Source of the DNA: an uncultured Bacteroidota bacterium
GTDB lineage: Bacteria; Bacteroidota; Bacteroidia; Bacteroidales; P3
DNA: 64,000 bases
Reading direction: 5' to 3'
NCBI GenBank assembly: GCA_902784465.1
Contig: CACZUZ010000021.1
Location: 20,357-84,356, forward strand
The position numbers were made by a program, and so were the translations under genes. Below are positions 35,366 through 62,881 of this stretch, in pieces; position 1 is the stretch's first letter, and every line of letters begins with the position of its first letter. A model generated the notes under the pieces. That model did no database searches. It saw nothing but the letters and a program-made list of their open reading frames with translations, and had not been told where the DNA came from.

Positions 35366-35385
35366 ACTTTAGGAAGAAAGGATTC

Positions 35386-35420
35386 TCGGATATTTGGATG
35401 TACGGATTATCGGATTATCA
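35386..35420 (-). repeat. Octamer array (NNNNATCC) overlapping the response-regulator stop
   Basis: Read in the gene direction from the stop codon, the sequence gives GATAATCC, GATAATCC, GTACATCC, AAATATCC, GAGAATCC: five 8-bp units with constant ATCC ends. The stop codon TGA is part of the first unit. The same octamers recur in the array next to ruvC at 62629-62722. Confidence 0.75.
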
Positions 35421-36364: not shown

Positions 36365-39300
36365 TCAATTTCCAATACTCAATCTCTCTGCCGGACAGAG
36401 AGCGCGGAACTCGGGTGCATAGAGGCACTGGATGGTTGTGGGAGCTGTCACGTATGTACCGGCATTATTGACATACATGTCGTACTCTACCACATATTGC
36501 CCTTTGTTGAGACGGTCGATGTAGAGGGTCTGTGCGGCGTTGGTGACGGCGAGGTAGTAGCTCAGTCCTCCGTTCCAGTTCCAACCGCTGGCGGTGCTGA
36601 CAGGTTCCATAGCGGCGCAACGGGGGTCCTTGAGCTCCAGATATTCGAGGTTGCGGTCGCAAGCAATCTCTATGCGTACACGTACCTTGTCGCCCACCTT
36701 GAGGCCATCGGTTCCGGCAATCTTGCTGAGCTTGCCGTCGCGCTCCACACGGTAGAGGGTTCGCTTCAGCGTCACACCCATGCTGCTGGAGGGTATCTTG
36801 TCTATCTGCTCGAAATACTGCCAGTACATGGCTCCCCACGCAATGCCGTCATCCTCCTTACGCACGGTCAGTTTGCCGTCGGATGGCGACACCTCGCCCT
36901 TGCCCAACCGCTGGCTGATGTGCAGCTGGTGGCGTGATGTGTCGGTGGCAATCTGGTGGCTGCCGAAGGCGACTGTCATCTTCGATGGTTCGATGCGGAC
37001 GGGCGAACTGATGTCGCTCTTCTCTCCGCCCATCAGCAGTGCCTGTATTGCATTGACGGTCGAGACATCGGTATTCCAGTTGGTTGTCTGCTTTTGCTTG
37101 AGAATCCACTGCTGCATCTTGGCTATACTCTCTTTGTCGCCCAACACCTCGTCCATGGTGCGGACCAGCATGGCCTGCGTCTCGATGGGGCGCTCGCTCC
37201 AACTCCATCCGCTGACATTGTCACGCCAATACATGCCCATCTCGTCGCTGTATAGTGCCTTCTCCTTGATACGCTTGGCCATCTCCTGCGCCAACTTGAT
37301 GTCGCCCTGGCGGTTGAAGATGACGCTGAGCATCGACTGCGTGTAGAGCGACCTGTAGCTCTCGTTGTATTTCTTGGCATTGTTGTAGAAGAAGTCATAG
37401 GCTTCTTTCTGCTTCTTGCTCAGTTTGTTGTCGGGATAGTAGCTGCGTACATACAGATAGTCGAGGTTGACGACATCGTAGCCCTTGTTCTTTATGTATT
37501 CCTTGTAATAGGTGTAGGTCTCGCGGTCGACAAAATCCATAGCCTTGTCGAGGGCTTGACGGGTCTTGCTGTCGAGGGACACACCTTGTCTTTGCAGCAA
37601 GCCGAAGGTCTTGAGGATATATTGCGTTGTATATAGGCAGGAGTAGCGTCCACCCTCTATCCAGCTCCATCCGCCGTCGACTCGCTGGGCAGCCAGCAGA
37701 CGGCTGGTCTCTTTACGCAGTTGGTTTTCTAGTGCTGCCTTGTTGAAGAACCTGGCCACATCGCGATGGCGTTGCTCCTCGTTGTTGGCATCGAGCAGCC
37801 AGGGCGTCTCGCTCATGACGGTCTGCTTGAGGTCGCTATTGCGGTCTAGCTCGGACATGAAGGCATCATTCCCCACTTTTTCCCACTCGCGGAAAATGGT
37901 CTCTATCTGCGGGTTGTTCTTGACGATGGCATACGAAAGGCTGTTGGTGTAGATCGAGTTGACGAGGTAGATGTTCGAAGGGTTCTGGCGTTGCTTGACG
38001 TAGGGAAGCGACTGCATGGCCATCCAGATGGGGTTGGGCGTGAGGTCGACGGTTAGTCCCAAGGTGGAGAGCGTAAAGTCGGCCGCCGCAGTGTCGAGCT
38101 GGGTGAGGTGCTTCATCTCGTATTGTTTCTCCCCTTTCCCGTTGATATAGAAGGCCATGGATTCGGTCACCAGCTGACGGCTGGGCAGCAAGGGGATGGG
38201 AGCAAGCTCGCCGTCGCTGCAGCCCTGCCCGCGTGCAACAACCATGTAGTTGGCAACATATAATGGGGCACGTGGCACGGCAAGGGTGAAGCTCACCTCG
38301 CCGCTGCGACCGGCAGCAAGGGTAATGTTACGCACGGTATCGCCAACAATCATGGACAAGGGTCTGCCGTCGGCAGCAGGATTGGTCATGCGTAGGGTTA
38401 CGGCAATGGTCTGCTCCTTGTCGTCCATGTTGCTCACCTTGACCGAGAAGATGCATGTGTCGCCATGACGCAGGAATCTGGGAACGTTGGGCACCACCAT
38501 GAGGCGTTTCTGGGTGATGGCCGTCTCGGAGAATGCCCCCTCTTTGAGGTCCTTAGTCCATGCAAGGCCTCTGATATTCCATTTGGTAAGCAGGTCGGGG
38601 GCATTGAATGAGAGCTCCACAAACCCGCTGTCGTCGCTCCTCAGCGTAGGCATGAAGAATGCCAGCGTGCTGAGGTTTTGACGGACATGGAGAGGCTCAT
38701 CAACAGCCTGGTTGTTAGCATCCTCTCCTTCATCAACAGAGAGTCTCGAACCCGATTCGGCACTTCCCACTTCTATAACAGGCACTTTATTAGCGGCAAC
38801 GGCAACATCTTTCAACTGCGCACCATATACCTCTTTCTCAGCTGCAAGCTCATTCTCGATTACGGCATCATCTTCCACAACTTCAAGAGATAATGCAACT
38901 TCACCACTTTCGCCACGAGCTGTGCCGCTTTTACGCAGGGCATAGCTATTATAGCGGCGAATTGTCGAATATATGCCGTTCTTCAGCATCAGGATATGAA
39001 ATTTGTATGGGTTTGGCAATATCTTGTAAGCCAATTCCTTCTGATATGCATAACGACCCATTGCTTTTCCGTTGATTTGACTGAAGACGCTGGAGGTGTA
39101 GCTTTGTCCCCATATTGTCATATACATTCCAAGATGGCCGTAATTGTCGAGAGCGGCATCATACATGGTCATCAACAGGTTGGCTTTGGCAGGCAGGCCG
39201 CTATATTTCTCCTTGACACAGAGAGTCCATCGCTCGGGAGTGCCAGGAGTCAGCTTGTTGCGGAAAGTCTCAAAGGTGACATCCAGCTCCTTGTGGCGGT

Positions 39301-42300
39301 AAGGCACCGAGACCGACCAGTTGTCGTATTCGAAATGGTTCTCCTTCATGGCGGCAACCTCGACGATAAAACCGCCCAAGAGGCTGTCGGTAACAGGTAT
39401 GGCAATATCGGTATAGCCACGCGAGACTTTGTATATGTCATGACGATACATCACCTTGCTCTTGCGCACCAGCACATAGAGTGTCACGTCGTCGAAGCGG
39501 CTGCCGACCTTGAGATGGACGGTGTCGCCAACGGGACAAGAGTTCTTCTCGAGGTGGCCTACGATGAGGTCGGACTTGAAGGGCATTTTGCCGCCCGTGG
39601 GTTCATAGACCTTATAATATAATGAATTAAGCGTGTCGCCTTGTTCGGTTATCATCATGGCCGTAACCTTGTAAACTCCCATAGGACGGCCTTTAAGACT
39701 GAACGTGAACGGCTTGTCGGGTGCCATATCGCCCATGCCGTCAAAGAGTTTCTTGTCGACCGGCCAATGGGTGTAGTCGGCTGTACTGTCCATGTAGTCG
39801 TAGAGAGGGAACATTTTCTCAAACTCGGCAGGAGTATAAGGCATCTCATAGTTGTCGCGTTGTATCATATCGTTGTGCAGCAGTGGCTTGGATGGCATCT
39901 TGAGGAGTTCGACGGTAATTTTGGCGCGACCGCTAAGTTCTTCGCCATCGAGGTTGTTGCGACTCACTGCCAGCGTATCGAAGTAGTAGTTGGTTTCGAG
40001 ATAGCTGTTGACATATCCCACCGAGAGCCGTGTGGAAGCCTCATGGGTCTCGCCATTGACATCTGTTACTGAGGCATATACCGAATAATAGAAAGCAGGC
40101 TTGCGACTCAGGTCGCTGACCGAGTCGGGTTGTGGAACAAACTCGATGGTGAACAGTCCCTGGTCGTCGGTTGTCAGCTCGCCTGTTGCCACGACCTTGT
40201 TTTCACTGCTTCCCCACCACTGGTTCCAGCCCCAACGCCATGTTGGTTGTCGCTCGGAACGGACAACACGATAGGTGACTGTGGCCCCATTGAGCGGCAC
40301 AGAGGTATAGGAAGCTGCGATACCCTCGACATGGGCTGGCTTGCCGAATTGACGCAGCTCTGCCGGCTTGGAGAGGGTGACGGTAAACTTGGGCTGCTTG
40401 TAGGACTCGACCTTGAATGATCTGCTATCGTTGTCGTACTTCACTCTCCAATAGCCGGGCATGGCATCGGCAGGAATGGCAAACTGGCCTTGGCATACGC
40501 CAAACTCGTCGGTAGCAAAGGGAATGGTGTCCTGTGCCTTGCCGTTGATGTCGCAAACCACAAACAATCCTTTGTGACCCTTGACGGCATGGCCTTCGTA
40601 ACGGTCTTTGGAGTACTTGAAGAGCGAGAAATGGACTGTGTCGCCAGGCTTGTAGACCGGACGGTCGAAGAAGAACTCTACAACCTCCCTGTCTTCGCTC
40701 GGTTCATAATAATAAAAATCATCGATAGATTCCTTAATTTCCAACCCTTTATAATTGACCAAGAACCATTTGTAGTAGGCCTCTTTTACCTTTTTGGAAT
40801 AGTTGGGGAACTCAAAATGGCCGTGACGGTCGGTCTTGGTCGTGGCAAGAACCTCTTTCTTGCTGCCATAGCTTTTCTGTATCTGCAGCTTCACCACCTC
40901 GCCCACTATCGGCTCTCCACTTTTGCGGTCGACAAGGAAACCTGAGCTATGTTTGGCATCGCCCTTCACGAGAGCCACATCCTCCACTTTCAGACTCACC
41001 TTATCGATAATGGTGTCGAAAGCCCTGTTGCTGGATGCAATCAGCAAGTAGTGGCCTTGCGCCATGGGCGGGATTGCAAAGTAGAGTCCACGTGACAAGT
41101 AGTCGTGACGGTCGCCGACATAAAGCGCCCACTCTTTGCGTACTGTACTCTTCATAAGTCTTTTACACATCCCCTCCTGAGATGTGTAATCTTCCGAAAC
41201 GGGGTCTACAATACGGAAAAAGAGGGTGTCGACATTGGAGACCGAAACCATAGCAAGGGCGTTGCGGCCAGAAGGCATCTTGGATGGTATCTCCATGTGT
41301 ATTGATGGACGCAAGATGCGCTGTTTCAAGTTGTAGCAATTAACGGCACCATAACTTTCGGGGTGCAGGGCTATGGCGGAATCGATGACAGCTACAGCAT
41401 CAACATATTTAGCATTGTCGTTGTAGTTTGACGCAAGCAAGTAATACAATTCTGTTATTGAGGGGTCGTTGGGAATGCTATAATAGCTGATTACAGCCGG
41501 CAACTGACTCATTCTTGTCTCTTTAATGTCCGAGAAATTGACATAATAGTTTACATTGGAAACTCTGTTGAGAAAAAGCTTGGTCATCACACGGGGGGTG
41601 CTTTTTCGAGACAGATGCATCTGCTCACGTTCCTGATTGAGTTTCAGCATAAAATCGGCCATCATCTGGACGGAGTCAATATCCTTTGTCTTGATTTTGG
41701 CGAATTGTTCAGTTGTGGCAAACAGGTTGTCGATGGCACTGAAATTCCTGTCGTTCAGTTTTCTGTAATACATATAGCTGAACAACTTATTGGCTTTGAG
41801 CACAAGGACATCGAAAACCGTGGGAGTAAGGTCGCCATCTTTTCCATTCCCTTCAAGCTCGACGAGGTTGCCCAACGATTCGGCATCAGCGCTTTTTAGC
41901 AGGTTAATGTCGGCAAAGGCGGCACGGATATAGCTCTCGACCACAGCATGGTAGCGGTCTTTATCCCAAAGCTTGTAGTCGAGGTCGTTCTCATCGGTAA
42001 CCTTGTTCCTGTTTATCAACCAGCTGTTGTCGGAGTAATAGTTGGCATAGAAGGTAGCCAGGAGCATGTTGCATACAGCCTTTTCCTTGCCAGTAAGCTT
42101 TGGCAGCAGCCGCAGGTAGCGGACAAGCGACGAGTCACTGTTGTCCTCCTTGAACTTGGCCCCTGTCATCGAAAGATAGTGGGCGGCGACAAGACTCTGC
42201 CAAGAGTTCTGCGAGCGAAGGGCATTATCGTAGAGTCTCTGCGACCTGTCGAAAGCCTGCGAATAGTATTGTTTTTTGACTAGGCTGTCAACAGCCTTCC

Positions 42301-42394
42301 ACTCTTTGGCATAATCCTGCCCCTGCGAGAAGCAGGGGGAGAATAGTACGGCTACATAAAATGCAGCGAGAAGAAAAATCCTCGAAAACTTCAT
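36365..42394 (-). CDS. Giant alpha-2-macroglobulin-like secreted protein without thioester
   Basis: About 2009 residues from the ATG at 42394, which gives a signal peptide (MKFSRIFLLAAFYVAVLFSP and cleavage after FSQ); an ATG four codons upstream is also possible. The N-terminal 350 residues are a helical TPR-like region. Then come macroglobulin domains, including FFFDRPVYKPGDTVHFSLF and FFMPTLRSDDSGFVELSFN, and an alpha-barrel-like region with GGWSWIEGG. The CxEQ thioester of protease-trapping A2M is not seen. Homologues are common in Bacteroidales, where they are thought to act at the cell surface; trapping would have to be non-covalent. Confidence 0.85.
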   Translation of the reverse strand: MKFSRIFLLAAFYVAVLFSPCFSQGQDYAKEWKAVDSLVKKQYYSQAFDRSQRLYDNALRSQNSWQSLVAAHYLSMTGAKFKEDNSDSSLVRYLRLLPKLTGKEKAVCNMLLATFYANYYSDNSWLINRNKVTDENDLDYKLWDKDRYHAVVESYIRAAFADINLLKSADAESLGNLVELEGNGKDGDLTPTVFDVLVLKANKLFSYMYYRKLNDRNFSAIDNLFATTEQFAKIKTKDIDSVQMMADFMLKLNQEREQMHLSRKSTPRVMTKLFLNRVSNVNYYVNFSDIKETRMSQLPAVISYYSIPNDPSITELYYLLASNYNDNAKYVDAVAVIDSAIALHPESYGAVNCYNLKQRILRPSIHMEIPSKMPSGRNALAMVSVSNVDTLFFRIVDPVSEDYTSQEGMCKRLMKSTVRKEWALYVGDRHDYLSRGLYFAIPPMAQGHYLLIASSNRAFDTIIDKVSLKVEDVALVKGDAKHSSGFLVDRKSGEPIVGEVVKLQIQKSYGSKKEVLATTKTDRHGHFEFPNYSKKVKEAYYKWFLVNYKGLEIKESIDDFYYYEPSEDREVVEFFFDRPVYKPGDTVHFSLFKYSKDRYEGHAVKGHKGLFVVCDINGKAQDTIPFATDEFGVCQGQFAIPADAMPGYWRVKYDNDSRSFKVESYKQPKFTVTLSKPAELRQFGKPAHVEGIAASYTSVPLNGATVTYRVVRSERQPTWRWGWNQWWGSSENKVVATGELTTDDQGLFTIEFVPQPDSVSDLSRKPAFYYSVYASVTDVNGETHEASTRLSVGYVNSYLETNYYFDTLAVSRNNLDGEELSGRAKITVELLKMPSKPLLHNDMIQRDNYEMPYTPAEFEKMFPLYDYMDSTADYTHWPVDKKLFDGMGDMAPDKPFTFSLKGRPMGVYKVTAMMITEQGDTLNSLYYKVYEPTGGKMPFKSDLIVGHLEKNSCPVGDTVHLKVGSRFDDVTLYVLVRKSKVMYRHDIYKVSRGYTDIAIPVTDSLLGGFIVEVAAMKENHFEYDNWSVSVPYRHKELDVTFETFRNKLTPGTPERWTLCVKEKYSGLPAKANLLMTMYDAALDNYGHLGMYMTIWGQSYTSSVFSQINGKAMGRYAYQKELAYKILPNPYKFHILMLKNGIYSTIRRYNSYALRKSGTARGESGEVALSLEVVEDDAVIENELAAEKEVYGAQLKDVAVAANKVPVIEVGSAESGSRLSVDEGEDANNQAVDEPLHVRQNLSTLAFFMPTLRSDDSGFVELSFNAPDLLTKWNIRGLAWTKDLKEGAFSETAITQKRLMVVPNVPRFLRHGDTCIFSVKVSNMDDKEQTIAVTLRMTNPAADGRPLSMIVGDTVRNITLAAGRSGEVSFTLAVPRAPLYVANYMVVARGQGCSDGELAPIPLLPSRQLVTESMAFYINGKGEKQYEMKHLTQLDTAAADFTLSTLGLTVDLTPNPIWMAMQSLPYVKQRQNPSNIYLVNSIYTNSLSYAIVKNNPQIETIFREWEKVGNDAFMSELDRNSDLKQTVMSETPWLLDANNEEQRHRDVARFFNKAALENQLRKETSRLLAAQRVDGGWSWIEGGRYSCLYTTQYILKTFGLLQRQGVSLDSKTRQALDKAMDFVDRETYTYYKEYIKNKGYDVVNLDYLYVRSYYPDNKLSKKQKEAYDFFYNNAKKYNESYRSLYTQSMLSVIFNRQGDIKLAQEMAKRIKEKALYSDEMGMYWRDNVSGWSWSERPIETQAMLVRTMDEVLGDKESIAKMQQWILKQKQTTNWNTDVSTVNAIQALLMGGEKSDISSPVRIEPSKMTVAFGSHQIATDTSRHQLHISQRLGKGEVSPSDGKLTVRKEDDGIAWGAMYWQYFEQIDKIPSSSMGVTLKRTLYRVERDGKLSKIAGTDGLKVGDKVRVRIEIACDRNLEYLELKDPRCAAMEPVSTASGWNWNGGLSYYLAVTNAAQTLYIDRLNKGQYVVEYDMYVNNAGTYVTAPTTIQCLYAPEFRALCPAERLSIGN

Positions 42395-42470
42395 AATAAA
42401 AGGCATTTCGAGGAAAACGGAGAAAAAAAGGAAAAATTGTATGAAAAGAAAAGATGACTTGCTAGTAATA

Positions 42471-42528
42471 CTAGAAAGTCTAGAAAGTCTAGAAAGTCTA
42501 GAAAATCTAGAAAATCTAGAAAGTCTAT
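42471..42528. repeat. 9-bp array (CTAGAAAGT/CTAGAAAAT, six units) after the tRNA terminator
   Basis: Six contiguous 9-bp units: CTAGAAAGT three times, CTAGAAAAT twice and CTAGAAAGT once, then CTATCACA. On the strand of the tRNA the units read NNNTTCTAG-like. It lies immediately downstream of the tRNA-Arg terminator and upstream of the macroglobulin gene. Confidence 0.9.
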
Positions 42529-42560: not shown

Positions 42561-42567
42561 CTTTTAG

Positions 42568-42641
42568 TGACTCCTGCAGGATTCAAACCTGCAACCTTCT
42601 GATCCGTAGTCAGATGCTCTATTCAGTTGAGCTAAGGAGCC
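42568..42641 (-). tRNA. tRNA-Arg (anticodon ACG)
   Basis: A 74-nt cloverleaf folds on the minus strand: acceptor GGCTCCT with AGGAGTC (one G-U pair), D arm with the loop around AGCTC, anticodon loop CTACGGA (anticodon ACG, A34 probably edited to inosine for CGU/CGC/CGA) and T arm GGTTTGAATCC. The discriminator is A; CCA is not encoded. A matched promoter lies upstream and a terminator follows. Confidence 0.95.
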
Positions 42642-43349: not shown

Positions 43350-43392
43350 TCTAGAATTTCTAGATTATCTAGATTATCTAGATTATCTATCA
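43350..43392. repeat. 9-bp array (CTAGATTAT, four units) overlapping the OMP stop codon
   Basis: CTAGAATTT is followed by three CTAGATTAT units and CTATCA, whose TCA is the complement of the outer-membrane-protein stop codon. In gene direction it reads TGA TAG followed by ATAATCTAG units. The same CTAG-based 9-mer class and the same GATAGA edge occur at 42471-42528. Confidence 0.9.
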
Positions 43393-44361
43393 AAAGAACG
43401 AAAAGTTATTTAGTGCAACATTAAGCTTTACTGCGTGATGTGGGGCGAAGCTGTCGTAGCCCAGAAGGTTTACTTTATTATAATGGAACACATACGATAG
43501 AGTCATCGCCGTTCCAACTGGCAGCGTGAAGCCAAAGGCCACCGACGCATATCCGCCATAGCCTATACCCCCTTGGTTTACATATTCATAGCTGGCCACG
43601 TATGACGACGGCGACTGGCCGCCCCAGATATCGAGTATGCTGTAGGTGATTCCGCCGATTTGTATGTCGCTGCTCTCCACCTTGGTGTTGTTGACATTGC
43701 CGCCAACCGACAATTCGATGTCCATTCCGTTGCGAAGCTTAAATTTGCGTATCAAGCCCAAATCGATGTATATACGCCGTTCCGAGCCCGCTAAAGGGCA
43801 ATCCACATAGCGGTCCTGGTTGGTAAGGTAGACTGTCCCCTTGCCGCTCTCGAGCAGCACCATGCCGACGGAATTGAGTTTGGCAAAGTCGAACTTCAAC
43901 TGCCAAGCCCAATGGCTCAACTCAAAATCGTACCTGAAACCCATACCCAGCTGGAACGCAAGACGATAGTACATGTCGCCATACTCGGCGACTTTGATTT
44001 GCCTGTAGTTGCCTACCGACTCCCCAATCAAATCTTTCGCGCTCAGATTATTCCAAATCTGGTTGCCGTATGTTTCGCTGTATAGTATTCGTCCTAACGT
44101 GTTGACATTGTCAGGATTGCCGTTGTAGAAGTTGGCATGACGGTTGTCGGCACGTAAAACACCGATATCGACTGTCAGCGACAAGCCTCGCAACTGTGTG
44201 GGCTTAAACAATTGAGCATTAAGAGGTGAGGGAAGACAGAACAAAAAGACCACACTGCACAGCAAAGCTATGCAGCCCATGCGACATTTCGATTTATAGC
44301 AGTTTTTTTCAGCGACGGGTCCAGCCTCGTCGCTACATCGGTCTCGGTCTTTATCGTTCAT
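43390..44361 (-). CDS. Outer-membrane beta-barrel protein (hypothetical)
   Basis: This 323-residue protein has a charged N-terminus (about 28 residues), a hydrophobic signal segment (MGCIALLCSVVFLFCLPSP) ending LNAQ, then alternating strands typical of a small outer-membrane barrel, such as LGMGFRYDFELSHWAWQLKF and GGYASVAFGFTLPVGTAMTL, ending in the aromatic FSFF. No enzyme or plug domain is seen. Its start overlaps the ECF sigma stop by 4 bp, so it is translated together with that regulator. A role as sigma target or sensor is a context inference. An alternative start at the second Met (residue 28) would shorten the N-terminus. Confidence 0.7.
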   Translation of the reverse strand: MNDKDRDRCSDEAGPVAEKNCYKSKCRMGCIALLCSVVFLFCLPSPLNAQLFKPTQLRGLSLTVDIGVLRADNRHANFYNGNPDNVNTLGRILYSETYGNQIWNNLSAKDLIGESVGNYRQIKVAEYGDMYYRLAFQLGMGFRYDFELSHWAWQLKFDFAKLNSVGMVLLESGKGTVYLTNQDRYVDCPLAGSERRIYIDLGLIRKFKLRNGMDIELSVGGNVNNTKVESSDIQIGGITYSILDIWGGQSPSSYVASYEYVNQGGIGYGGYASVAFGFTLPVGTAMTLSYVFHYNKVNLLGYDSFAPHHAVKLNVALNNFSFF

Positions 44362-47427: not shown

Positions 47428-47529
47428 CGTTATAACGGAATGACGTTATAACGTTATAACGAGGCCTCGGAATAACGAAATAACGTTATAACGTTATAAC
47501 GAAAAAAAATCAACGAAAAAATCAACGAA
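47428..47529 (+). repeat. Octamer array (CGTTATAA/CGNNATAA) and CGAAAAAATCAA units after tgt
   Basis: Starting 9 nt after the tgt stop, CGTTATAA, CGGAATGA, CGTTATAA, CGTTATAA, then (after CGAGGCCT) CGGAATAA, CGAAATAA, CGTTATAA, CGTTATAA, then longer units CGAAAAAAAATCAA and CGAAAAAATCAA. CGTTATAACG is its own inverted repeat. The same unit recurs at 57482-57512. Confidence 0.85.
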
Positions 47530-47568: not shown

Positions 47569-49674
47569 ATGAAAAAAACAATTATCGCATTGGCTTCGCT
47601 GGCACTCGTATGCGCCTGCCACAAGCAAGCACCCGAAGAAACCTCATCGAAGGTCATCGGAAAACCTGAAATTCAAATCAACAATGGCCAGTTCACGCCC
47701 GACGTGATGTGGGCTCTGGGCAAGATGGGCGAATATGCCGTCTCGCCCGATGGCAGCAAGCTGGCCTACACCCTCACCTACTACGACATGCAGGAGAACA
47801 AGGGCAACGCCGAGCTCTACGTCATGCCCACCTCCGGCGGCGAGGCCACACGCCTCACCAATACCGCCAGCAGCGAGTTCAACCCAGTATGGAAAGATGA
47901 CAACACGCTGCTTTTCTGCCGCGAAAACGAGATTCGCAGCGTCGATGTCAAAAACAACCAGGAGAACGCAGTCACCACTTTTGAAACCTTCATCGAAGGC
48001 TTCAAGCTCTCGCCCGACGGCAAGCAGGTGATCTTCATCGCCGACCTCCCCGTGAAGCATGCCAACGACGTGGCACCCCTCTTCGATGGCCTCGACAAGA
48101 CCACCGGTCGCATCAACGAAGACCTCATGTACCGCCATTGGGACCAGTGGGTTGACGAATACCCGCAGATATTCCTCGCCGACCTTACGCCCACCATCGA
48201 CATGAAGGATGCCGTCGCCATCGTCGACAGCACTTTTGAGTGTCCCATGCGTCCCTGGGGCGGCATTGAGCAGTTCAACTTCTCGCCCGACGGCAAGCAG
48301 ATTGTCTACACCTGCCGCAAGAAAACCGGCAAGGACTATGCCATGAGCACCAACAGCGACATCTACCTCTACGACATCGCTTCCAAGAGCACCAAGAACA
48401 TCAGCGAGGGCATCATGGGCTACGACCAGAACCCCGTCTTCAGCAACGACGGCTCCAAGATAGCATGGGAGAGCATGGAGCGTGACGGCTACGAGAGCGA
48501 CAAGCTCCGCCTGATGGTCTACGACATAGCCAATGGCACACGCACCGACTACACCGAGGGCTTCGACTACGGCGTGAGCGGCATCACATGGACCAGCGAC
48601 GACAAGGAGATGCTTGCCGTTGTGATGTATCGCGGCATGAACGAAATCTTCGCCTTCAACACCGCCGACAAGAGCATCCGCCAGATCAGCCACGGCTACC
48701 ATGACGTGAACGGCTTCCAGCTCTGTGGCGACAAAATCTACGCCAACCAAGTCAGCATCTCCTACCCCGCCACCATCTACGCCTACAACCTCAGCGACGA
48801 CAAGAAAGAGGGTACCAAGCTCACCACCTTCAACGACGAAGTCCTCTCGCAGGTACGCATGGGCAAGGTCGAGGAGCACTGGATCAAGAGCAGCGACGGA
48901 CAGGACATGCTCACATGGCTCATCTACCCCTACGACTACGACAGCACCAAGGTATACCCTGCCCTGCTCTTCTGCGAAGGCGGTCCCCAGACCATGGTCA
49001 GCCAGTTCTGGAGCACACGCTGGAACTTCCAGGTCATGAGCGGTGCCGGCTACTTCGTCATCGCCCCCAACCGCCACGGTGTCCCTGGCTTCGGCACCAA
49101 GTGGTGTGAGGAAATCAGTGGCGACTATGGCGGACTCTGCATGAATGACTACATGATTGCAACCGACTATTTTGCCGACAATATGAAGCAGATTGACCGC
49201 GAGCGCATAGGTGCCTGCGGCGCCAGCTTCGGCGGATACAGCGTCTACTGGCTCGCCGGACACAACTACGGCGTGAAAGGCTACAACGAGGGTCGCCGCT
49301 TCAAGGCCTTCCTTGCCCACAACGGCATGTTCAACTTCGAACAACAGTGCCTCGAGACCGAAGAGCTGTGGTTCACCAACTGGGACCTCGGCGGCCCCTA
49401 CTGGGCTAATACCCCCCAAACCAAGAAGAGCTACAGCAACTCGCCGCACCTCTTTGTCGACAAGTGGAACACCCCCATCTGCGTAGTCCACAGCGAGTTC
49501 GACTTCCGTATCGTCGCCAGCCAGGGCATGGCAGCCTACAATGCCGCCAAAATCCGCGGACTCGATGCCCGCTACCTCTACTTCCCCGACGAGACCCACT
49601 GGGTACTGCATCCCCAGAACAGCCTCCTCTGGCACCGCAACTTCATCGACTGGTTCAACAAAAAACTGAAGTAG
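47569..49674 (+). CDS. Lipoprotein S9-family prolyl oligopeptidase (DPP-like)
   Basis: This 701-residue protein starts with a lipoprotein signal (MKKTIIALASLALVCAC, Cys17). Residues about 30-430 contain WD-like beta-propeller repeats such as NFSPDGKQIVYTC. The C-terminal alpha/beta-hydrolase domain has the nucleophile elbow GACGASFGGYSVYW, an Asp in SEFDFRI and His in PDETHWV. S9 peptidases cleave oligopeptides after Pro or similar residues; in oral and gut Bacteroidetes the DPP5-type members release dipeptides in the periplasm or at the surface. The propeller gate limits substrates to short peptides. The specificity is a family inference. Confidence 0.9.
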   Translation: MKKTIIALASLALVCACHKQAPEETSSKVIGKPEIQINNGQFTPDVMWALGKMGEYAVSPDGSKLAYTLTYYDMQENKGNAELYVMPTSGGEATRLTNTASSEFNPVWKDDNTLLFCRENEIRSVDVKNNQENAVTTFETFIEGFKLSPDGKQVIFIADLPVKHANDVAPLFDGLDKTTGRINEDLMYRHWDQWVDEYPQIFLADLTPTIDMKDAVAIVDSTFECPMRPWGGIEQFNFSPDGKQIVYTCRKKTGKDYAMSTNSDIYLYDIASKSTKNISEGIMGYDQNPVFSNDGSKIAWESMERDGYESDKLRLMVYDIANGTRTDYTEGFDYGVSGITWTSDDKEMLAVVMYRGMNEIFAFNTADKSIRQISHGYHDVNGFQLCGDKIYANQVSISYPATIYAYNLSDDKKEGTKLTTFNDEVLSQVRMGKVEEHWIKSSDGQDMLTWLIYPYDYDSTKVYPALLFCEGGPQTMVSQFWSTRWNFQVMSGAGYFVIAPNRHGVPGFGTKWCEEISGDYGGLCMNDYMIATDYFADNMKQIDRERIGACGASFGGYSVYWLAGHNYGVKGYNEGRRFKAFLAHNGMFNFEQQCLETEELWFTNWDLGGPYWANTPQTKKSYSNSPHLFVDKWNTPICVVHSEFDFRIVASQGMAAYNAAKIRGLDARYLYFPDETHWVLHPQNSLLWHRNFIDWFNKKLK

Positions 49675-49714
49675 TGAATTGTGAATCGTGAATTGTGAAT
49701 TGTGAATTGTGAAG
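49674..49714 (+). repeat. 7-bp array (TGAATTG) starting at the S9 stop codon
   Basis: Directly after TAG (49672-49674) come TGAATTG, TGAATCG, TGAATTG, TGAATTG, TGAATTG and TGAAGC: five to six 7-bp units in tandem. The stop codon is 0 nt from the first unit. Confidence 0.9.
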
Positions 49715-57481: not shown

Positions 57482-57512
57482 CGGAATAACGTTATAACGT
57501 TATAACGAAATA
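57482..57512 (-). repeat. Short octamer array (CGTTATAA) after prmA
   Basis: The prmA stop at 57521-57523 is followed, after about 12 nt on its strand, by CGTTATAA, CGTTATAA and CGTTATTC. Same unit as the array after tgt at 47428-47529. It also lies upstream of the metallopeptidase gene. Confidence 0.75.
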
Positions 57513-57520
57513 GAGAACCA

Positions 57521-62628: not shown

Positions 62629-62881
62629 TGGATTTTTGGATATTCGGATTTTCGGATTTTCGGATAATTGGATAATTGGATAATTGGATTATCGGATAAT
62701 TGGATTTTCGGATATTCGGATTTTCCGTTCATCCGTCCCATCCGTTCATCCGTTCATCCGATTGTCCGTTCATCCGTCCCATCCGTCCATCCGTTCATCC
62801 GTCCCATCCGTCCCATCCGTCCATCCGTTCATCCGATTGTCCGTTCATCCGTCCCATCCGTTCATCCGTCCCATCCGTTCA
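62629..62881 (-). repeat. Large tandem array (ATCC/GGATG octamers) overlapping the ruvC stop
   Basis: Read on the strand of ruvC from its stop codon (62879-62881): first about 150 bp of GGATG-type units (ACGGATGG, AACGGATG, GACGGATG, ATCGGACA), then about 95 bp of NNNNATCC octamers (GAAAATCC, GAATATCC, AATTATCC, GATAATCC). The total is more than 25 imperfect units of 8-9 bp. GATAATCC and its relatives are the same octamers as in the array after the response-regulator gene. Confidence 0.9.

Follow-up and report, generated by a model that had tools for sequence, protein, structure and literature searches.

At seven places in the window, which is the whole stretch of 64,000 nucleotides analysed here, short units of 7–9 bp are repeated in tandem, and a first, sequence-only reading had placed six of these arrays directly behind stop codons. 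It offered three explanations: 3'-UTR elements controlling mRNA ends or stability, protein-binding sites, or replication-slippage hot spots tied to gene ends. What are these arrays, and is the stop codon what places them? The window is part of contig C21 of a draft genome of 2.53 Mb (G000; 88 contigs, 84% complete), and our survey of this genome covered 864 kb, the window plus 40 further stretches. Genes were called with a gene finder built for this analysis, which found 50 genes covering 93% of the window; the homology check of gene calls was limited to ten window proteins. Arrays were called by autocorrelation at periods 6–10, a procedure stricter than Tandem Repeats Finder (TRF) at the seven window loci. 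Three relatives were found by scanning named genomes with one window protein: Bacteroidetes bacterium RUG14161 (G041), Bacteroidales bacterium UBA1223 (G042) and Bacteroidales bacterium RGIG3228 from goat reticulum (G043). The same gene finder and array caller were applied to 487 kb of G043.

Tandem arrays in the window and the genome

All seven arrays are present in the sequence and are listed by TRF with scores of at least 36. The stricter caller reports an array at six of the seven loci, missing the one at 35386-35420, and calls the tgt and ruvC arrays in parts only.

35380..35420, minus strand: degenerate CGGATNNT array 3' of the stop codon of the response regulator; listed by TRF with score 36, not by the strict caller
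42471..42528, minus strand: CTAGAAAGT 9-mer array with tRNA-Arg (42567-42641) on one side and the gene at 36365-42406 on the other; no adjoining stop codon; same family in the same G043 gap
43350..43392, minus strand: TCTAGANNN 9-mer array directly adjoining the stop codon of the gene at 43390-44361; the corresponding G043 gap has an array of this family
47428..47529, plus strand: CGNNATAA 8-mer array in the gap that separates tgt from the S9 peptidase gene; TRF and caller
49672..49713, plus strand: GTGAATT 7-mer array beginning at the S9 peptidase stop codon; same family in the same G043 gap
57482..57517, minus strand: CGTTATAA 8-mer array shortly 3' of the prmA stop; the same gap in G043 holds CATTCAAA units
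62629..62881, minus strand: two adjoining arrays of opposite orientation in the gap between ruvC and an SNF transporter; TRF and caller

Six of the arrays do lie just 3' of a stop codon, at 0–8 nt according to the originally given coordinates and our gene map (13 nt for prmA by the TRF edge), while no stop codon precedes the tRNA-Arg array. All six are in co-directional gaps, and their far edges are 20–43 nt from the next start codon. The ruvC gap is flanked by genes matching PF02075 (ruvC) and PF00209 (the transporter). In gene sense, on the minus strand, CGGATGNN units follow the ruvC stop codon and ATCCNAAN units precede the start codon of the transporter gene, and TRF finds higher-order repeats in the ruvC array.

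Such arrays are abundant in this genome. In total, we detected 123 arrays of 6–10 bp units in the 864 kb. As a control, 57 arrays were found in 21 of the 41 stretches against none in Markov sequence of the same stretches. The period is 7–9 in 80 of the 101 intergenic TRF arrays and 2–5 in none; in the relatives, period-11 arrays are also frequent (10/37, TRF). The density is 14 arrays per 100 kb in the own genome and 18 per 100 kb in G043, and among the relatives, contig-start stretches have anything between 0 arrays per 40 kb (G016) and 18 per 40 kb (G002). As tandem repeats of 5–11 nt units exceeding the length expected by chance, the arrays are long simple sequence repeats.

Position relative to genes

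Of the 123 arrays, 32 lie in called coding sequence and 2 at an edge. The other 89 occupy a gap between two called genes, which in 79 cases is co-directional. Among gaps of at least 40 nt in the own genome and G043, an array is present in 107 of 444 if the flanking genes are co-directional, in 12 of 110 if they diverge and in 7 of 76 if they converge (co-directional versus other gaps, p 4.6e-5). Random placement within the same gaps would leave 26.9 ± 3.1 of the 79 co-directional arrays within 15 nt of the stop codon, where 36 are found, and 26.9 within 15 nt of the start codon, where 29 are found. The excess is clearest for arrays abutting or overlapping the upstream stop: 21/79 versus 4.4 expected in the own genome, and 11/41 versus 1.9 in G043. 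The corresponding figures at the start codon are 5/79 versus 4.4 and 5/41 versus 1.9.

The periodicity sets in within the stop codon itself. For the 49 arrays no more than 10 nt from a stop (own genome and G043), the match to the next period rises from 0.41 through 0.53 to 0.63 over the three stop codon bases and reaches 0.73 at the following base. The whole stop triplet is repeated one period downstream in 14 of the 49, a raw count given without a chance expectation. The idea that the words themselves carry a stop triplet, judged by eye, was set aside.

The link to stop codons noticed in the window is thus real but partial: arrays abut stops in clear excess over random placement, and they also fill gaps towards the start codon and occur inside called genes. 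The arrays are not 3'-end elements as such, because they extend towards start codons, are no commoner in convergent than in divergent gaps, and lie in called genes in 32 of 123 cases. Markers of gene ends should be frequent in convergent gaps, in which arrays are infrequent. The proposed role as 3'-UTR elements for mRNA ends or stability is not supported, given this lack of enrichment, orthologous gaps that are often free of arrays, and the recurrence in called genes of identical words that vary at identical positions; an effect on RNA at single loci is possible. The suggestion of slippage hot spots at gene ends fares better, with partial support: the match to the next period increases across the stop codon, higher-order repeats are present in the ruvC array, and both the presence of an array and its unit vary by species.

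Word families and their grammar

The observation that each unit has a constant and a variable half holds for unit-position variation in both the own genome and G043. Of the intergenic arrays, 69 of 91 in the own genome and 42 of 66 in G043 belong to seven word families defined from the own genome, while only 75 of 455 arrays with permuted unit columns fit them. The same seven families accommodate 22 of 34 coding arrays of the own genome (the 32 called ones and two MutL pieces). Free positions were written into the consensus of three families, which favours a conserved core; we therefore repeated the profile comparisons below with families defined without free positions.

Adjacent units differ at 0–19% of core positions and at 26–56% of the freest positions. 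Besides its core, each word has one to three freer positions. The most variable are positions 5 and 8 in TTGA-D-TG-Y, the last three in TCTAGA-NNN, the last in GTGAAT-D, the third and fourth in CG-NN-ATAA, and the sixth and seventh, together with the first, in CGGAT-DD-T. These profiles agree between the own genome and G043 (Spearman 0.76 over 24 positions in three families; 0.85 over 15 positions in two families defined without free positions), although the letters at free positions partly differ. Own intergenic and coding arrays agree as well (correlation 0.85 over 39 positions in five families; 0.78 over 22 positions in three families in the repeated comparison). As the same profiles appear in intergenic and coding arrays, the grammar needs no untranslated setting. 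A constraint on the word core is not proved by this agreement, because common descent of dispersed units would give the same positions everywhere.

Within an array, neighbouring units resemble each other little more than randomly chosen ones do; differences between arrays are larger. Exact blocks of at least 32 nt are common to 23 locus pairs, against 7.6 ± 3.9 in 20 unit-shuffled sets, and blocks of at least 24 nt to 66 pairs against 36 ± 6. The longest block common to two loci, 51 nt, falls inside the shuffled range of 34–55.

Within open reading frames, arrays of 7- and 8-bp words encode peptide repeats such as TENGELK and SNIQTFKH in predicted genes. The following arrays lie inside predicted gene calls:

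L024:9067-9160: array inside an open reading frame
L052:1642-1716: array inside an open reading frame
L046:7374-7428: array inside an open reading frame
L053:15126-15188: array inside an open reading frame

A separate motif, ATTTGTC(C/A), stands directly 5' of AATTCAC-type arms, and of arms made of other words in two relatives. ATTTGTC precedes AATTCAC arms at several loci, but it also has 29 coding matches.

L031:3337, L034:11206, L043:5804, L045:11451, L054:14120, L057:13797; also L120 and L082: ATTTGTC(C/A) motif sites

Comparison with related species

The ruvC array used as a query gives 65 matches in its own genome. In 24 further genomes of the genus it has a single weak match, and in 16 others of the order none. 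Arrays missing from the same loci in other genomes had been named beforehand as evidence against a role at gene ends, and this pattern is found in part. The ruvC gap of G043 is 30 nt long and free of arrays, and none is called in G041; a three-unit CATATCAA run in the G042 gap is seen only with looser caller settings. Arrays of other words are called after ruvC in G005 (ATCGAAAC), G002, G007 and G014, and in G001 an array lies farther downstream, perhaps inside the next gene.

The gap after tgt tells a similar story. The CGNNATAA word of the own genome is replaced by TCTAGANNN in G043 (L083), by TGATATGG together with a second array in G042 (L082), and by a weak 11-mer, recognised by eye, in G041 (L081). 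At 16 loci of the same genus no array is called within 330 nt after tgt, where the identity of the next gene may differ. Downstream of mutL, 17 of 18 loci in the genus are informative (at one the contig ends), and arrays are called at four of the 17 (own genome, G014, G002 and G015), all with different words; a fifth, in G001, was seen by eye.

Among 51 orthologous co-directional gaps of the own genome and G043, seven have an array in both, eight in the own genome only, five in G043 only and 31 in neither. The tgt gap was scored here as own-only since the G043 gene call runs over it, although an array is present there in L083. Orthologous gaps are often array-free or carry another word. We make no claim for conserved array slots between the two genomes: the p value is 0.026 with the strict caller, 0.09 with the looser one and 0.43 if both gaps must be at least 40 nt.

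Proposed spread and maintenance at the DNA level

Our preferred explanation, which we consider probable with moderate confidence, is that families of 7–9 bp words multiply and spread at the DNA level in this Bacteroidales genus and are kept where they are tolerated. We have seen directly that words are common to many loci and to called genes, that units vary unevenly along their length, that arrays are gained, lost and change their word, and that they are biased in position and strand. Arrays would begin from small duplications or copied-in units and may lengthen by slippage and unequal exchange. Mismatch repair handles loops of at least 7 bp poorly, which would favour such lengthening. Ectopic copying may carry units between loci. 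Purifying selection would then act as the filter, so that arrays stay in co-directional gaps from the stop codon on, where the cost of insertion is probably low, and in protein linkers as the other tolerated site. Next to start codons, the orientation with a G-poor, weakly folding mRNA strand would mostly be kept.

A linker with arrays is found in a mismatch repair gene.

L248:1402-3438 (G000:C40): mutL, with 8-bp ATCCG-word arrays in the inter-domain linker at L248:2759-2893

The linker arrays keep the reading frame open, and they are built of different units in different genomes: an 8-mer in the own genome, a 9-mer in G002, a 10-mer in G001 and a 6-mer in G005. A change by one 8-bp unit would shift the frame, and a slippage switch of mismatch repair is therefore conceivable in principle. 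Loss of mismatch repair was rejected as the cause of the arrays: both MutS and MutL are present in G000 and have no stops.

As to carriers, neither reverse transcriptase nor Y1 transposase is supported across the nine genomes searched. G000, at 84% completeness, has no match to PF01797 of the Y1 transposases, and the array-rich G002 has none to PF00078, which led us to reject reverse transcriptase. Four reverse-transcriptase domain matches occur in G000: C21:17375-17989 and C21:5341-5952, left of the window on the same contig, and one each on C42 and C14.

The fixed core is the feature least explained by plain slippage, and slippage alone makes no prediction that the same positions should vary at many loci. 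This gives ground for a second possibility, unlikely in our estimate: a DNA-level system that recognises the fixed core, accepts variation at the freer positions, and inserts added or copied units between genes and in protein linkers. If such a writing system existed, each species would hold a small vocabulary of words under a common grammar. A related proposal is that the core is bound by a protein which covers the array DNA or modifies it, in line with the binding sites suggested at the outset. A fixed core with freer positions, common to two species and to coding arrays, would fit this; however, one genome contains several unrelated cores, relatives switch words, and common descent of units would give the same picture. 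We judge a binding function to be improbable.

Confidence in multiplication, spread and tolerance of words at the DNA level is held at its moderate level by common descent of units and by the roughly twofold excess of hairpins described below, both of which weigh against it.

Strand and folding near start codons

The arrays nearer to a start codon are biased in strand. In the own genome, G is rarer than C on the mRNA strand in 26 of 35 and commoner in 8, whereas the 44 arrays nearer to a stop are evenly divided (22 with less G, 21 with more). Three of six words follow the same division of the gap in the own genome, standing in sense orientation in its first half and in antisense in its second: TTGAATGY (p 1.6e-4), GTGAATTG (p 0.003) and CGGAT (p 0.045). 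The other three give no significant result. When start-proximal arrays are reversed in silico, pairing of the start region increases in 51 of 70 cases and decreases in 14 (own genome and G043). The same reversal in array-free leaders makes 187 of 273 more and 75 of 273 less paired. Start-proximal arrays obey the general leader rule of a G-poor strand as mRNA, since array-free leaders respond to reversal alike.

This bears on the idea that the arrays are translation elements, the G-poor pre-start arrays forming leaders free of structure or binding S1 or cold-shock proteins, a role proposed for TAACTGA repeats. The strand bias near starts speaks for it, as does the lower degree of pairing in start regions beside start-proximal arrays, compared with array-free genes (p 0.0014); TAACTGA arrays, too, lie mostly a few nt upstream of start codons (PMC4679880). 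Against it stand the identical effect of reversal in array-free leaders, the absence of strand bias in stop-nearer arrays, the recurrence of words and variable positions inside called genes, and the lack of the array in many orthologous gaps. A role in translation accordingly has only a small probability in our view.

Hairpins

A G-rich arm after the stop and an inverse arm before the start could pair into a stem, partly with a conserved loop, which would terminate or protect the mRNA. When all arm pairings are ranked, the pairing of a gap's own arms is among the best 10% for 16 of 58 array gaps versus 23 of 170 array-free gaps (p 0.025), and the loop AGTGGCTGRCGCA is found with differing arms in several species. 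At the top 5% the comparison becomes 10/58 versus 16/170 (p 0.15), a minority at best, and convergent gaps are unenriched. The exact loop occurs in 54 of 120 genomes of the genus, with 45 copies in G011 against 0 in the reversed control, but in G000 with four copies against four; some of its sites appear by eye to be in genes or in a plain terminator. Rfam models at gathering score match only two tRNAs in the five sources searched (window, L050, L056, L059 and L152). As a general rule the hairpin was rejected: own arms beat swapped arms (z 4.6), but so do those of array-free gaps (z 7.6, in a larger sample). The hairpin excess in array gaps is about twofold, and we retain hairpins for a minority of arrays only; that they account for the arrays is very improbable.

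A core, AGTGGCTG(A/G)CGCA, often stands between differing array arms; exact copies are found in 54 of the 120 genomes from the genus, with 45 in G011 alone, and in G000 it is no commoner than the reversed control. By eye, it resembles an intrinsic terminator in L218, L234 and L235.

L050:13423, L056:12089, L059:2213, L033:10990 and loci L190-L244: AGTGGCTG(A/G)CGCA core sites

The draft state of the genome, with its 88 contigs and incompleteness, might suggest chance or an assembly artefact, a negligible prospect given the complete absence of arrays from Markov sequence and the same families in the independent goat-reticulum assembly, a comparison that already refutes it.

Comparison with known systems

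REP and BIME palindromes, which are associated with RAYT transposases, are intergenic and in part form hairpins. The elements described here are arrays of 7–9 bp units with a hairpin in a minority, and G000 has no Y1 transposase match. The STRR heptanucleotide repeats of cyanobacteria are degenerate 7-bp words in intergenic tandem arrays, and by this description they are similar to our arrays.

Short tandem arrays of bacteria are usually regarded either as a neutral product of slippage or as switches for phase variation. In the present case several families coexist in one genome, and two species have a similar grammar, as do coding and non-coding arrays, while place and word change between relatives. 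This offers a testable case of how repeats disperse in bacteria, how operon gaps and protein linkers absorb them, and whether something acts on the core.

Among the literature matches listed for such arrays in Bacteroidales, with thin coverage of subscription papers, there was none beyond PMC4679880. That paper (MacGregor 2015) describes direct repeats of the heptamer TAACTGA in Beggiatoaceae, Cyanobacteria and five Bacteroidetes, with two sets in Paludibacter. These are arrays of one word, mostly before start codons, with some overlapping stops. TAACTGA is not among our seven families nor among the 22 unassigned intergenic arrays of the own genome. By comparison, our arrays comprise about seven word families with a fixed core and freer positions, are longer, occur in excess at stop codons and in called genes, and change their word between relatives. 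The same text cites long simple sequence repeats of 5–11 nt units, of which 7 nt is the commonest in most genomes (Mrazek 2007, via PMC4679880). As far as they are described there, these resemble our arrays in a unit length centred on 7 nt, a scattered occurrence among species and a proposed origin by slippage, and differ in that ours have word families common to many loci under a common grammar. Most likely, the arrays are of one kind with long simple sequence repeats and TAACTGA arrays, to which they add several words per genome, a grammar and a presence in called genes.
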